DNA of 64,000 nt from Parahoeflea halophila (GTDB lineage Bacteria > Pseudomonadota > Alphaproteobacteria > Rhizobiales > Rhizobiaceae): NCBI RefSeq assembly GCF_900220985.1, contig NZ_OCPC01000002.1, forward strand, positions 434,001 through 498,000. The letters run 5' to 3'. Under the pieces are notes generated by a model that was given only the letters and a program-made list of their open reading frames with translations, did not search any database and was not told the origin of the DNA. Position 1 is the first letter of the stretch. Every line of letters starts with the position of its first letter. The position numbers and the translations under genes are program-made. Shown piece after piece: positions 39,007 through 43,892 of the stretch.

Positions 39007-39480
39007 ATGGCGAAGTCCACCCGCGCCACGCAAACCCTCAGCAAGCTTGGCATCACCTTCACCACCCACAGCTATGACTACGATCCCGATGCCGAAAGCA
39101 TCGGCTTGCACGCAGCCGACGCGCTCGGAGAGCCGGCCTCGCGGGTCCTCAAGACCCTGATGGCCGAGCTTGATGGAAAGCCGGTTTGCGTGATCCTGCC
39201 CTCAGATCGTGAAGTCAGCATGAAAAAGCTGGCGGCAGCCCTTGGCGGCAAGTCGGCGATGATGATGAAGCCGGCGGATGCCGAACGCCTGACCGGCTAC
39301 CACGTCGGCGGCATCAGCCCCTTCGGCCAGAAAAAACGGGTCCCGACCGCGATCGAAGCCGCCGCTTTGTCGGAACCCTACGTCTTCATCAACGGTGGTC
39401 AGCGCGGGTTGCAGGTGCGTCTTGATCCCAATGATGCCCGCCGTGCCCTCAATGCCGTTGCAGCCCCGGTGATGGCCTGA
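39007..39480 (+). CDS. ybaK: Cys-tRNA(Pro)/YbaK family deacylase
   Basis: This 157-residue trans-editing protein hydrolyses Cys-tRNA(Pro), and related proteins act on other mischarged tRNAs. The YbaK/ProX fold is indicated by RVLKTLMAELDGKPVCVILPSDREVSMKKLAAALGGKSA and the GYHVGGISPFGQKKRVPTAIE substrate loop. It is convergent with the UdgX gene, whose stop lies 18 bases away. Confidence 0.9.
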   Translation: MAKSTRATQTLSKLGITFTTHSYDYDPDAESIGLHAADALGEPASRVLKTLMAELDGKPVCVILPSDREVSMKKLAAALGGKSAMMMKPADAERLTGYHVGGISPFGQKKRVPTAIEAAALSEPYVFINGGQRGLQVRLDPNDARRALNAVAAPVMA

Positions 39481-39498
39481 CCGACGGATCCGTTGTCG

Positions 39499-40959
39499 TC
39501 ACCCGGTCGGTGCCCCGGCGGAGCGGGCGGTGAGCGCCAGAACCATCTGCGCAGCAAGGCGAAGATCCGCCTCGAACAGCGCCATCTGCTTTTCACGCTC
39601 TGCCGGATCAGGCAGGCGCAGCAGGAACGACGGATGCACCGCGATCAGCACCGGGGTGCCGTCGGCAAGCTGTTCGATGGTGCCGCGGCGGCGCATGATG
39701 TTGGCACCGGTTCCGGTCAGTGCCTCGGCAGCGGTGGCGCCAAGCGCCAGAACCAGCTTTGGCTGCACGAGGCTGCGTTCGGCATCGAGCCACCAGCGGC
39801 AGTGCTCGATCTCGCCGGAATTCGGCCGCTGGTGCAGCCGTCGCTTGCCGCGCGGCGTGAATTTGAAATGCTTGACCGCATTGGTGACAAACGTTTCTGA
39901 CCGGCTCAAGCCTGCCGATTGCGCGACTTTGTCGAAAAGCTGACCGGCCGGGCCGACAAATGGCAGGCCGGCCAGGTCCTCCTGATCTCCCGGCTGTTCG
40001 CCGACAATCATTAGAGCCGCATCGAGAGGGCCGACACCCGGCACGGCCTGGGTGGCAGTTCTGTGCAAGGGGCATCGTGTGCAAGCGTGGATCGCCGCCG
40101 GCAGTGCCTCTTTCGGGCCTTCCCAGGCCGACATGTGGGCAGCCAGCTGCTGGCGCGCTTTCTCGGCCCGGATCGGGGGCAGGGTGGGTGCCGCTTCGGC
40201 CATCGCCCGCGCCCGCGCCGGGGCATTGGCGATCAGGTCGGGAATGGTTGCCGCCTCCGGCAGGTTCCTCCAGTATTTCTTCGGCATTTCCGAAGTCATC
40301 GCCTGCACTTTCAGCCTAGCTGGGTTGAAAATGCTTCGGAAATAGGTCAGCCACAGCGCCTCTCCGGCGTCTTCCGGCAGGTCGGGCCGCGGCTGGCCCT
40401 CCGCAAAACTCAGGCGCCCATCGAGAAAAATTGCGGTCTTCTCGGGCGTGACAATGCGCCAGTCCATGTCGGCAAAGCGGCGGGCGAAGAAATCCGCCGT
40501 CGGCTCCACCGTGTGGTGGGTCGGTTCGAACCAGGCGGCAAAACTGCGCCGCGGCGCTGTGCGATCGCCGATTTCGCGGAACCGGACAAAGGCTTTCATC
40601 TTGTGCTGGCAGCGATGCACCGATTTTTCCATCGAGCGCAGATGCGCCAGCTCCCTGTCACCCCGGTCGGCTATCAGGTGCGGCGCATCCTTCAGTCGCC
40701 AGAGAAAGGCGTAAAGCCGTGCGAACCGGTCCGCGTCACGGTGCCAGCAGACGGTTTCCGCAAGGCTGACGAAACTGCGCGGCACCGTCTGTTTTACCGG
40801 CGCGGCGGCCCTGGCGGGCTGGTCGTCAAACAGCCCGCGTTCGGATTGTTCGCTGCCCCAGGTGACATCGGAAGGCGCCAGTCCCTCCCTCAGGCATGCC
40901 CGTGCGGCATCGCGCCAGGCGGCGGCTGTTCCGAAATCGGGAAGCGTTATGTGACGCAT
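39499..40959 (-). CDS. udgX: UdgX family uracil-DNA binding protein with N-terminal TIGR03915 domain
   Basis: This 486-residue two-domain protein joins an N-terminal DUF4130/TIGR03915 'DNA metabolism' domain (about 1-260) to a UdgX-type uracil-DNA glycosylase domain (about 285-480). GEQPGDQED is at 320-328 and KRRLH at 372-376; His376 matches the residue that in Mycobacterium UdgX forms a covalent bond with the abasic sugar. HPS is at 442-444. Likely Fe-S ligands are Cys293, Cys296 and Cys387; where family-4 enzymes have another Cys, this protein has His364 (AVKHFKF). ATG 40959 (or GTG 40962) overlaps the radical SAM stop. Confidence 0.9.
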   Translation of the reverse strand: MRHITLPDFGTAAAWRDAARACLREGLAPSDVTWGSEQSERGLFDDQPARAAAPVKQTVPRSFVSLAETVCWHRDADRFARLYAFLWRLKDAPHLIADRGDRELAHLRSMEKSVHRCQHKMKAFVRFREIGDRTAPRRSFAAWFEPTHHTVEPTADFFARRFADMDWRIVTPEKTAIFLDGRLSFAEGQPRPDLPEDAGEALWLTYFRSIFNPARLKVQAMTSEMPKKYWRNLPEAATIPDLIANAPARARAMAEAAPTLPPIRAEKARQQLAAHMSAWEGPKEALPAAIHACTRCPLHRTATQAVPGVGPLDAALMIVGEQPGDQEDLAGLPFVGPAGQLFDKVAQSAGLSRSETFVTNAVKHFKFTPRGKRRLHQRPNSGEIEHCRWWLDAERSLVQPKLVLALGATAAEALTGTGANIMRRRGTIEQLADGTPVLIAVHPSFLLRLPDPAEREKQMALFEADLRLAAQMVLALTARSAGAPTG

Positions 40960-42194
40960 CACAGAAGCGACAATTGCTGTGGCGGTGGCAGGAAGCGGCT
41001 GCGCAACTGTGCCGTGTCGGTCAGCCCGCCCGGCGACCAGCCCTGCGCGGTCACGAACGGCCCGGCCTTCTTCATCGATCCACCCATCCGCACCACGTCC
41101 TCGTAGCGCACGGTGCGATAGCGCCGCGTGCTCAGGATCCGGTTGACCGTCTTCACCCCGAAGCCCGGAACCCGCAGCAGCAATTCCCGGTCGGCACGGT
41201 TGATGTCGACCGGAAACATCTCCCGATGCTTGAGTGCCCAGGCTAGTTTCGGGTCAAGTTCGAGATCGAGATTGCCGTCCCGCGCACCACTGACGATCTC
41301 CTCAAGATCGAAGCCATAGAACCTGAGCAGCCAGTCGGCCTGGTAGAGCCGGTGCTCGCGCACCAGCGGCGGCGAGACCAGCGGCAGCCGCGACGAGCTG
41401 TCGGGAATCGGCGAGAACGCTGAATAGTAAACCCGTTTGAGCTGGTAGCTCGAGTAAAGCCGGGTCGATTCGCCCAGGATCGCGGCATCATTGGAGCCGT
41501 CGGCGCCGATGATCATCTGCGTCGATTGGCCGGCCGGCGCGAAACGCGCCGCCTTGCGCCCGGTATGGGTCTTGTCGCCGGCGGCTTCCTTGCGCAGCCG
41601 TACATCGGCCATCGCCCTCCGGATCTGGCCCGGATTCTTCTCCGAGGCGAAGGTCTCCATGCTGGCCTCTGTCGGCAGTTCGACATTGATCGACAGCCGG
41701 TCTGCGAGCCGTCCCGCCTCCTCGATCAGTTCCGGTGCTGCATCGGGAATGGTCTTGAGGTGAATGTAGCCGCGGAAATTCTCTTCCTCGCGCAATCTGC
41801 GCACGATTTGCACCATGTCCGACATTGTGGCATCCGGCGAGCGAATGACGCCCGAAGACAGGAACAGGCCTTCGATATAGTTCCGCCGGTAGAAGTCGAT
41901 CGTCAGCCGGACCACTTCGTCAACCGAAAACCGGGCCCGCGGCACGTTCGACGACACCCGGTTGATGCAATAGGCGCAGTCATAGATGCAGAAATTGGTC
42001 ATCAGGATCTTGAGCAGGCTGATGCATCGCCCGTCCGGCGCATAGGCATGGCAGATCCCGGTGCCCTCGTTCGAGCCAAGCCCCTTGCCGTCGCGGCTGT
42101 CGCGCTTGGTCGAGCCGGAGGAAGCGCAGGACGCATCATATTTGGCGGCATCGCTGAGGATGGCGAGCTTTGATTCGAGTGTTTTGCCAGTCAT
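40959..42194 (-). CDS. Putative DNA modification/repair radical SAM protein
   Basis: This 411-residue radical SAM enzyme is of the TIGR03916 type. The 4Fe-4S cluster motif is Cys69-x3-Cys73-x2-Cys76 (NFCIYDCAYC), and additional cysteines at 23, 48 and 57 precede it. A helix-hairpin-helix near the C-terminus (about 330-354, LRVPGFGVKTVNRIL) suggests DNA contact. The reaction is unknown. It overlaps the UdgX gene, and the two families are known to co-occur. AAGGA precedes ATG 42194 and lies inside an SOS box, so the gene pair is probably DNA-damage inducible. Confidence 0.88.
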   Translation of the reverse strand: MTGKTLESKLAILSDAAKYDASCASSGSTKRDSRDGKGLGSNEGTGICHAYAPDGRCISLLKILMTNFCIYDCAYCINRVSSNVPRARFSVDEVVRLTIDFYRRNYIEGLFLSSGVIRSPDATMSDMVQIVRRLREEENFRGYIHLKTIPDAAPELIEEAGRLADRLSINVELPTEASMETFASEKNPGQIRRAMADVRLRKEAAGDKTHTGRKAARFAPAGQSTQMIIGADGSNDAAILGESTRLYSSYQLKRVYYSAFSPIPDSSSRLPLVSPPLVREHRLYQADWLLRFYGFDLEEIVSGARDGNLDLELDPKLAWALKHREMFPVDINRADRELLLRVPGFGVKTVNRILSTRRYRTVRYEDVVRMGGSMKKAGPFVTAQGWSPGGLTDTAQLRSRFLPPPQQLSLL

Positions 42195-42196
42195 AT

Positions 42197-42211
42197 GTTC
42201 CTTATATGTTC
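42197..42211 (-). promoter_or_regulatory. LexA (SOS) box of the radical SAM-udgX pair
   Basis: The plus strand reads GTTCCTTATATGTTC, an exact match to the alphaproteobacterial LexA motif GTTC-N7-GTTC (GAAC-N7-GAAC on the coding strand). It ends 2 bases before the ATG of the radical SAM gene and covers its ribosome binding site. LexA bound here would block transcription entering the gene pair. Confidence 0.75.
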
Positions 42212-42305
42212 CGCGCGAGGGCGCAGCAACAACCCAGGTTAATCCTGTCAGGAAACAATGACCGGGGATTTGTGCCGGTGGAAGCGGCAGCCTTCGTAGG
42301 ATCGC

Positions 42306-43892
42306 CTAGAACAGGCTTCCCTGTCCGGGTTCGGTGGCTTTCCCGGTTTTGCCACGAGCCGGCTTCTTCGGCGCCGTGATCGGTTGATCGCTGCTGCTGG
42401 CCAGTGCTGAAACCTCGCCATCAGCGAATTCAACGGAAATCATCGTGCCGGTTTCGACCTGTGCTGCGCGCGACAAAAGCGTCCGGTCCTGGTTGCGAAC
42501 CACCGCAAAGCCGCGCCCCAGCACGCTCTGGTAGGACAGCGATTGCAGCATCCGTGCTTGCGCCCCGAGCCCGCGCTTGTGCTGCTCAAGCTTGAGTGAC
42601 ATCGCGTTGTCGCGCCGCCGCCCCAGATCGGTGAGCCGTTCCAATCCGCGGGCATGTGATTCCCGGATCCGGCGCGGCAGCGTGGCGACGGACTGGGCAT
42701 GACGCTCCAGCCGGGCTCTCAGCGCATCGATCCGCCGTTCCTGAACCCGGTCCATGCGCGCGATCTTGTCGCGCACTTGCTGTCGCTTCTCCCGCAGCGC
42801 CGATACCAGCGCCACTGGCGTGATTCGCGACGCCTGCTGTTCGAATCTCCGGCGACGGTTGGCGGTGTTGAGCTCCAGTGCCCGGCCAAGCGATTGCGCC
42901 GAGCGGTCGAGCCGCTGGCGCGGCAAGGCCAACACGCTGTCGAGTGTCGGCAGGGCGCGTGCCAGGCCGCGCACGGTTTCGCGCCGCCGGTCGAGTATCC
43001 GGGACTGGGCGGATTTCAGCCGGGCTGCCAGTGTGGCCAGATGCGCCTCGAGATCGGCCTTCACCGGCACCGCCATTTCGGCAGCTCCCGTCGGCGTCGG
43101 TGCGCGGCGGTCGGCGGCGTGGTCGATCAGCGTCCAGTCGGTCTCGTGCCCCACCGCCGAAATCAGCGGGATGTCGGATTCGGCTGCGGCGCGCACCACC
43201 GCCTCGTCATTGAAACCCCAGAGATCCTCGAGGCTGCCGCCGCCACGCGCGACAATGATCAGGTCAGGCCGCCGGATCGCGCTCAAGGGACCAAGTGCGT
43301 TGAAGCCGTTGATGGCGCGCGCCACTTCGTCGCCGGACGTGTCGCCCTGAACCCGGACCGGCCAGACAATAACGTGGACCGGGAACCGGTCCTCGATCCG
43401 GTGCAGGATGTCGCGAATCACCGCCCCGGTGGGCGAGGTCACCACGCCGATCACTATCGGCATATAGGGCAGCAACTGCTTGCGGCCCTCGTCGAACAGG
43501 CCTTCGGCGGCAAGCTTGCGCCGCCGCTCCTCGATCAGCGCCATCAGTGCGCCTGCGCCGGCGGGCTCCAGCGCCTCGATCACGATCTGGTATTTCGATG
43601 ACCCGGCATAGGTGGTGATCTTGCCCGAGGCGATCACCTCCAGCCCTTCCTCGGGCCGGTGCTTGAGCCGCGAGAACACACCCTTCCAGATCACCGCCTC
43701 GATGCGGGCCCGGTCGTCCTTGAGCGAGAAATAGGCGTGCCCGGAGGAATGCGGGCCACGATAGCCGGAGATCTCGCCGCGCACGCGCACATTGCCGAAG
43801 GCATCCTCGACCGCGCGTCGGATGGAGCCCGAGAGCTCACTGACCGTGAACTCGGCGGCGTTTGTGGGCGAATCATTCATCAGCTCAGCCAT
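42306..43892 (-). CDS. xseA: Exodeoxyribonuclease VII large subunit
   Basis: This 528-residue subunit of the single-strand exonuclease XseAB has an N-terminal OB-fold ([29 protein letters not shown]) followed by the nuclease core (ITSP-like [79 protein letters not shown]). A long arginine-rich coiled-coil region follows, typical of XseA. Candidate starts are 43892 and 43880; neither has a good ribosome binding site. It lies 111 bases upstream of the SOS-boxed repair pair on the same strand. Confidence 0.95.

Follow-up and report, generated by a model that had tools for sequence, protein, structure and literature searches.

The 64,000-nucleotide window analysed here, from contig NZ_OCPC01000002.1 of Parahoeflea halophila (positions 434,001 to 498,000), carries on its minus strand two overlapping genes that stand behind a LexA-type box. 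The first gene (40959-42194) is an open reading frame (ORF) of 411 amino acids (aa) whose product is a radical S-adenosylmethionine (SAM) protein of family TIGR03916. The second (39499-40962) is an ORF of 487 aa, counted from a GTG start, that fuses a TIGR03915 domain, or DUF4130 (40249..40962, about residues 1-238), to a UdgX domain of family TIGR03914 (39499..40248). A sequence-only reading of this DNA had drawn attention to the pair and proposed a damage-induced pathway in which the radical SAM protein may process the covalent adduct between UdgX and DNA. Here, we report a computational follow-up of that proposal, which bears on how the pair may be controlled, which of its parts belong together and what they may do.

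The gene pair and its products

The overlap of the two genes is confirmed and lies in the letters TGTGATG. With GTG as the start of the fusion gene the overlap is 4 nucleotides (nt); with the next codon, ATG, it becomes TGATG and the protein has 486 aa. The motif histidine of the UdgX domain is residue 377 in the first case and 376 in the second, so that its earlier designation as His376 is correct for the ATG start.

The radical SAM protein matches TIGR03916 of NCBIfam with 575.1 bits (cut-off 343.5), which places it in that family, and the Pfam model PF04055 with 39.1 bits against 29.5 (E 1.1e-9). Its CX3CX2C motif at C69/C73/C76 is conserved in all 49 aligned rows and marks it as a member of the radical SAM superfamily. 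A second set of residues, C23, C48, H49 and C57, is conserved in 48 of the 49 rows and suggests an extra metal site in the protein. The sole row lacking them is a homologue on a Gemmatirosa plasmid (L130:3995-5257), which scores 303 bits, under the family cut-off, and possibly represents a sister family of TIGR03916; no TIGR03915 was found beside it at that locus. The C-terminal helix-hairpin-helix that had been proposed receives weak support, in that residues 329-357 match PF12836 with 21 bits, where the gathering score is 27, but this weak match was found repeatedly. A structure model of the protein has a mean predicted local distance difference test (pLDDT) score of 84.9, and its fold neighbours are MgmA, HydG, HydE, MiaB, BioB and LIAS.

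In the fusion protein, residues 11-237 match TIGR03915 with 203.9 bits (cut-off 112.25), which makes this domain a member of that family, and the protein matches PF13566 with 125.7 bits against 27. Seven residues of the TIGR03915 domain (R127, F128, P147, F159, R162, R216 and P227) are invariant in 50 of 50 rows. A profile search of the PDB found no solved relative of the domain (best E 0.39), and a model of the two-domain fusion had no match recognisably to TIGR03915 among the top 50 of either the PDB list or the viral list. Those PDB matches are proteins of the uracil-DNA glycosylase (UDG) type together with one polymerase carrying such a domain, and the viral matches are mostly UDG and polymerase proteins, many of them without a name.

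Residues 240-469 match the UdgX model TIGR03914 with 332.9 bits (cut-off 189.95), and the UdgX motifs noted earlier are present in the domain, with GEQPG at 321, KRRLH at 373-377 and HPS at 443 (GTG numbering). The motif histidine is found in 37 of 38 aligned fused domains. Six of the 38 UdgX domains lack the CxxC pair C294/C297, which we take to be the expected iron-sulfur cluster ligands; alignment error or a cluster-less subgroup are both possible.

The LexA-type box and the promoter

A perfect GTTC-N7-GTTC box lies at 42197-42211 (GTTCCTTATATGTTC in the plus-strand reading, GAACATATAAGGAAC on the gene strand) and ends 2 bases before the ATG at 42194, as the sequence-only reading had stated. 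PMC8565304 gives GTTC-N7-GTTC as the alphaproteobacterial LexA motif. A single box of this kind is uninformative alone, since perfect copies occur close to the chance level both in the window (one, against 1.8 expected) and genome-wide (106, compared with 94 for a reversed control pattern), and conservation among relatives therefore had to decide. We examined 126 of 132 loci for the box, having dropped L127-L132 (a viral fragment and records from plasmid and phage collections). Between -150 and +15 relative to the start of the radical SAM gene, 118 of the 126 have a perfect box, against 0.54 expected from dinucleotide shuffles, although the loci are related to one another and the counts are not independent. 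Five of these loci are labelled as other classes, four by kinship label (L017, L038, L042 and L045) and one, an Acidovorax metagenome-assembled genome (MAG), by its title (L104); with these set aside the perfect direct repeat is found in 118 of 121 loci, a set that includes the window's own locus, the viral contig L126 and L101 ('Proteobacteria bacterium'). The three misses among the 121 (L060, L076 and L099) each have a one-mismatch site, and all ten further loci of the same class, fetched later, carry a perfect GTTC-N7-GTTC. The conservation of this LexA-type box is thus far beyond chance.

In other classes of the phylum the genes are instead preceded by CTGT-N8-ACAG, which we take to be the LexA box of beta- and gammaproteobacteria. 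Across 18 such loci this box is perfect in 12, has one mismatch in four and is missing in two. The 18 comprise 13 newly fetched loci (ten perfect and three with one mismatch, where 0.03 perfect-site loci would be expected) and the five set aside above, among which L042 and L045 are perfect and L104 has one mismatch. A gut contig labelled as phage, L132, in which no UdgX was found, has two perfect GAAC-N4-GTTC boxes, presumably of the Gram-positive LexA type, at -87 and -56. Since the other classes carry CTGT-N8-ACAG, control by LexA has probably been kept across lineages while the type of box changed. In the P. halophila genome itself, a lexA ORF is preceded, at a distance of about 70 nt, by a perfect box, and the ORF of a Y-family polymerase has one near its 5' end. 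The pair has the sequence features of an alphaproteobacterial SOS regulon member, namely a conserved box at the promoter and a lexA that is present and itself boxed.

The position of the box suggests how control might be exerted. A promoter is predicted at TTGCTG-N17-TATAAG (42201..42229, minus strand), with its elements at -35 and -12 as counted from the start codon, which would make the -10 hexamer part of the LexA box and put the transcription start at about the ATG. Across the relatives, the box stands at exactly -17 in 51 loci, in which there is a TTG tendency at -35..-33 (T in 43/51, T in 34/51 and G in 44/51), and the promoter pattern fits 42 of 104 boxes in this orientation, compared with 6.9 when the upstream sequence is shuffled. 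These features point to a leaderless mRNA, with LexA sitting on the -10 element. This arrangement is not universal, because the box lies further upstream in other loci.

Co-occurrence, loss and the role of the pair

To see which families travel together we used 299 genomes drawn evenly from the phylum, 60 of which are not near-complete. TIGR03916 scores over its cut-off in 53, TIGR03915 in 56 and UdgX in 52. Every one of the 53 TIGR03916 genomes also has TIGR03915 (Fisher P about 1e-55, with kinship left uncorrected), on the same contig in all 53 and within 500 nt in 49, which bears out the linkage of the families. UdgX is over its cut-off in 40 of the 53 radical SAM genomes and not in the other 13, and 12 genomes have UdgX without the radical SAM enzyme. 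The 13 genomes with no UdgX over the cut-off carry the box of their own class in perfect form in nine cases, with one mismatch in three and not at all in one (L017). In Bacteroides finegoldii, Fusobacterium vincentii and two gut contigs, a stand-alone TIGR03915 gene (239-257 aa) follows the radical SAM gene, and no UdgX was found in these fetched loci. The laboratory model Caulobacter vibrioides, one of the control genomes, matches all three families, with the over-cut-off status certain only for TIGR03915.

Cases of loss are informative in the same way. Ten UdgX genes (L197-L206) come with neither the radical SAM gene nor an intact TIGR03915, and nine of them lack an upstream box of the alpha or gamma type; L207, which has no UdgX, and L208 and L209, which have an intact and boxed fusion, were counted apart. 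The boxed exception, L197 (genome G131), is a deletion remnant: the radical SAM gene is gone, as is TIGR03915 up to about residue 202, and no more than a few bases separate the box from the rest of TIGR03915 (about residue 203 onwards), behind which comes an intact UdgX frame. L198 and L199 keep UdgX with only short TIGR03915 stubs. Taken together, the co-occurrence and loss data lead us to read TIGR03915 as serving the radical SAM enzyme and UdgX as useful alone, which suggests that UdgX is an optional add-on and not the target of that enzyme. The split between core and accessory also shows which two proteins belong together for purification. Complementarity with photolyase was considered and rejected, as the association is positive rather than negative: among near-complete genomes, photolyase occurs in 42 of the 53 with the radical SAM enzyme and in 96 of the 186 others, and the pair is therefore no substitute for photolyase.

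The explanation that we favour, with modest confidence, is an SOS-induced DNA repair operon with a two-component core of TIGR03916 radical SAM protein and TIGR03915. It draws on the domains, the gene order, the conservation of the box through a change in its type and the dependence between partners, all of which are observed. By covering the -10 element, LexA would keep transcription from starting; upon DNA damage the operon would be transcribed, the mRNA probably being leaderless, and translation of the second gene would rely on the stop-start coupling that the overlapping codons suggest. The radical SAM protein may be held on DNA through its helix-hairpin-helix and generate a 5'-deoxyadenosyl radical, which would act on a damaged nucleotide recognised or presented by TIGR03915. 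The fused UdgX would be an accessory, binding covalently at uracil sites as UdgX of Mycobacterium smegmatis does, and handling uracil that arises alongside the lesion or from it. As a speculative example, uracil would remain once a cytosine-containing pyrimidine dimer that had undergone deamination was reversed. A patchily distributed operon in which a LexA-type box persists while the type of box changes is probably useful during DNA damage.

A more specific version of this explanation, which we put forward only tentatively and consider rather doubtful, makes TIGR03916 and TIGR03915 a new and widespread SOS-induced enzyme of radical lesion reversal, in which C23/C48/H49/C57 would form a second metal site and a subunit of novel fold would recognise the lesion; reversal of deaminated lesions would then yield uracil that UdgX catches covalently. 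If this were true, UdgX would serve these bacteria physiologically by protecting what a radical repair reaction has produced.

Several points weigh against the favoured explanation. The lesion, the product, the interaction between the proteins, LexA binding and induction are all predicted. Box support is uneven: L017 and L038 belong to the phylum and have no box even at one mismatch, and outside the phylum, where four loci with the pair were examined, support is thin. Among these four, a perfect box (of the Gram-positive type) occurs in L132 only, L131 shows sites with one mismatch, and neither L128 (Bacteroides) nor L129 (Fusobacterium) has a box of the alpha, gamma or Gram-positive type. One-mismatch sites are weak evidence because such a site also turns up in some 3-14% of upstream regions after shuffling, the figure varying with locus and motif. 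The metal site is proposed from sequence, in a part of the protein where the structure model is poor (pLDDT <50 at residues 27-46), and L130, the only outgroup without the cysteine/histidine motif, is a single case. Three genomes (G259, G276 and G345) have TIGR03915 over its cut-off without the radical SAM enzyme, so the dependence of TIGR03915 on that enzyme is not absolute; all three loci keep a perfect box upstream of TIGR03915, and G259 and G276 keep the fusion to UdgX. The association with photolyase neither supports nor excludes a photolesion as substrate. Spore photoproduct lyase (SPL), a repair enzyme to which we return below, is absent from the top 50 fold matches of the radical SAM model.

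Among other explanations, the one that survives best makes the radical SAM protein a maturase with the TIGR03915 protein as its substrate, the modified protein then being the DNA repair factor. The near-obligate pairing (53/53) would suit such a role, as would fold neighbours that include the activase PFL-AE, the protein-modifying MgmA and lipoyl synthase. We nevertheless think it unlikely, given that the helix-hairpin-helix region of the radical SAM protein, weakly but repeatedly matched, suggests a DNA substrate, and that G276 and G259 retain the TIGR03915-UdgX fusion in the absence of the enzyme. It is less probable again that UdgX forms the functional core, with the radical SAM and TIGR03915 genes as helpers of uracil repair. 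UdgX is the only domain of the three with known biochemistry (PMC10359453) and is what L197-L199 retain when the rest is lost, but the box is lacking at nine of the ten UdgX genes that stand without radical SAM and intact TIGR03915, whilst a perfect one is present in nine of the 13 genomes that have the radical SAM enzyme but no UdgX over the cut-off.

We give little credence to the idea that the pair introduces a modified base into DNA or takes one out, possibly in phage defence, with UdgX policing uracil. The NCBIfam title 'DNA modification/repair' and the presence of homologues on 158 plasmid and 10 phage-labelled records are in keeping with it; against these stand the LexA-type boxes of two or three kinds and the seven scanned representatives of recurrent neighbours, none of which is recognisable as a defence or modification gene. 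Neither protein matches PADLOC at E 0.01, on which ground phage defence was rejected. The least probable is the role first proposed, in which the UdgX-DNA adduct is what the radical SAM enzyme resolves or processes: the genes do adjoin under one box in the window and UdgX over the cut-off accompanies the enzyme in 40 of 53 genomes, but we reject such a pathway as a general role on the co-occurrence and loss data, with 13 enzyme genomes lacking UdgX over the cut-off, 12 genomes having UdgX without the enzyme, the fetched Bacteroides and Fusobacterium loci holding the pair with no UdgX found, and L197-L199 keeping UdgX after the enzyme was lost. The part worth studying appears to be the core of radical SAM protein and TIGR03915.

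Neighbourhood and origin

The gene upstream of the pair is xseA (PF02601; minus strand, last base 42306), which had been placed there on the same strand and is separated from the radical SAM gene by 111 nt. Seven of 18 genomes of the genus have the operon, and in all seven it adjoins xseA. In nine operon-free xseA loci of the genus, xseA abuts ybaK in L212 and L220 and arsC in L219, and neither ybaK nor arsC was found within the fetched flank in the other six. Relative to window positions 39480-42306, L212 and L220 present a clean empty site, with xseA directly beside ybaK. In a tree of 67 proteins the copies of the genus form one clade (100/100) nested in a group that also contains Roseobacteraceae sequences, a placement that points to a single horizontal acquisition; the plasmid and phage-labelled homologues were given above.

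The top 22 clusters of ORFs from 80 named loci revealed no recognised repair gene as a further operon partner beyond the two operon families and shadow ORFs that overlap them. Seven cluster representatives were scanned, two of which had no Pfam match at E 1e-20. A hemerythrin gene (PF01814) follows the radical SAM gene in four loci (L035:901-1374, L121:7598-8212, L124:4153-4635 and L126:7264-7770), which come from Sphingobium, Sphingomonas, another genome of the class and a viral contig grouping with Sphingobium, and in three of the four it lies between the radical SAM and TIGR03915 genes; hemerythrin might protect an oxygen-sensitive cluster. In a Fulvimarina MAG, a gene resembling cytidine/dCMP deaminases (PF00383; L088:7850-8488) occupies that same position. 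The viral contig, L126, is from IMG/VR and has the radical SAM gene and the box, and a weak, sub-cut-off match to a tape-measure protein nearby suggests a prophage flank.

Relation to known systems

We take COG4277 to be the TIGR03916 radical SAM family, the mapping of COG4277 and COG1573 to TIGR families being our assumption. Passages in several open-access papers bear on these families. PMC8565304 predicts SOS regulation for a COG1573-COG4277 two-gene unit in Bacteroidetes and refers to an earlier report of SOS regulation of a UDG-based system in Verrucomicrobia and Alphaproteobacteria; PMC3765255 associates DUF4130 with SplB-like radical SAM and UDG proteins; PMC3828012 predicts LexA control of CAC3343-CAC3344 in C. 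acetobutylicum; and PMC13130816 records a radical SAM gene of the same annotation as raised on desiccation in Acinetobacter Tol 5. Passages in PMC9266487, PMC9611098 and PMC9848294 hold little on the pair, those in PMC5554334 and PMC7739468 are uninformative about it, and a text search within the main text of PMC12700426 found mention of neither uracil nor radical SAM. The radical SAM reaction and the role of the TIGR03915 domain had been called undescribed. This stands as regards biochemistry, since searches of the open-access literature (subscription papers were outside their scope) turned up no such study of either this radical SAM family or DUF4130, and hence neither a substrate for the enzyme nor a function for DUF4130, but not as regards the association and its SOS regulation, which were already published.

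Of known proteins, the UdgX domain most resembles UdgX of M. smegmatis, by sequence (6IOD, E 1.9e-50), by fold (TM-score 0.88 over the 6AIL domain) and in the conserved GEQPG, KRRxH and HPS motifs; that protein forms a covalent bond to uracil DNA, and PMC10359453 describes its physiological role as largely unknown. The window's domain differs in being fused behind TIGR03915, in an operon with a radical SAM gene. The nearest folds of the radical SAM model are BioB, LIAS, MiaB, HydG and HydE, which share 10-18% identity with it among the matches listed, and no family-level relation to them was found. LIAS and MiaB have extra conserved cysteines before CX3CX2C, and in this they resemble the window's protein.

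To our knowledge, radical SAM enzymes that repair DNA are rare, and SPL is the classic case. The likeness to SplB (COG1533) lies in being a radical SAM enzyme of DNA repair, a role that is here predicted. The window's protein differs in having no match to the SPL models of NCBIfam or Pfam at E 0.001, where it matches only TIGR03916 (NCBIfam) and Radical_SAM and HHH_3 (Pfam), and membership of the SPL family is not supported. According to PMC8565304, SplB is SOS-regulated in several species.

The closest known system is the COG4277-COG1573 unit, which has the same families and an upstream LexA box, and from which the window's pair differs in nothing essential. New relative to the published unit are the contrast between an optional UdgX and a near-obligate TIGR03915, the dependence of box type on lineage, the overlap of the box with the predicted -10 element and the invariant C23/C48/H49/C57 motif. 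The pair in the window is a genuine member of this known, biochemically unexplored repair unit, with a well-conserved LexA-type box.

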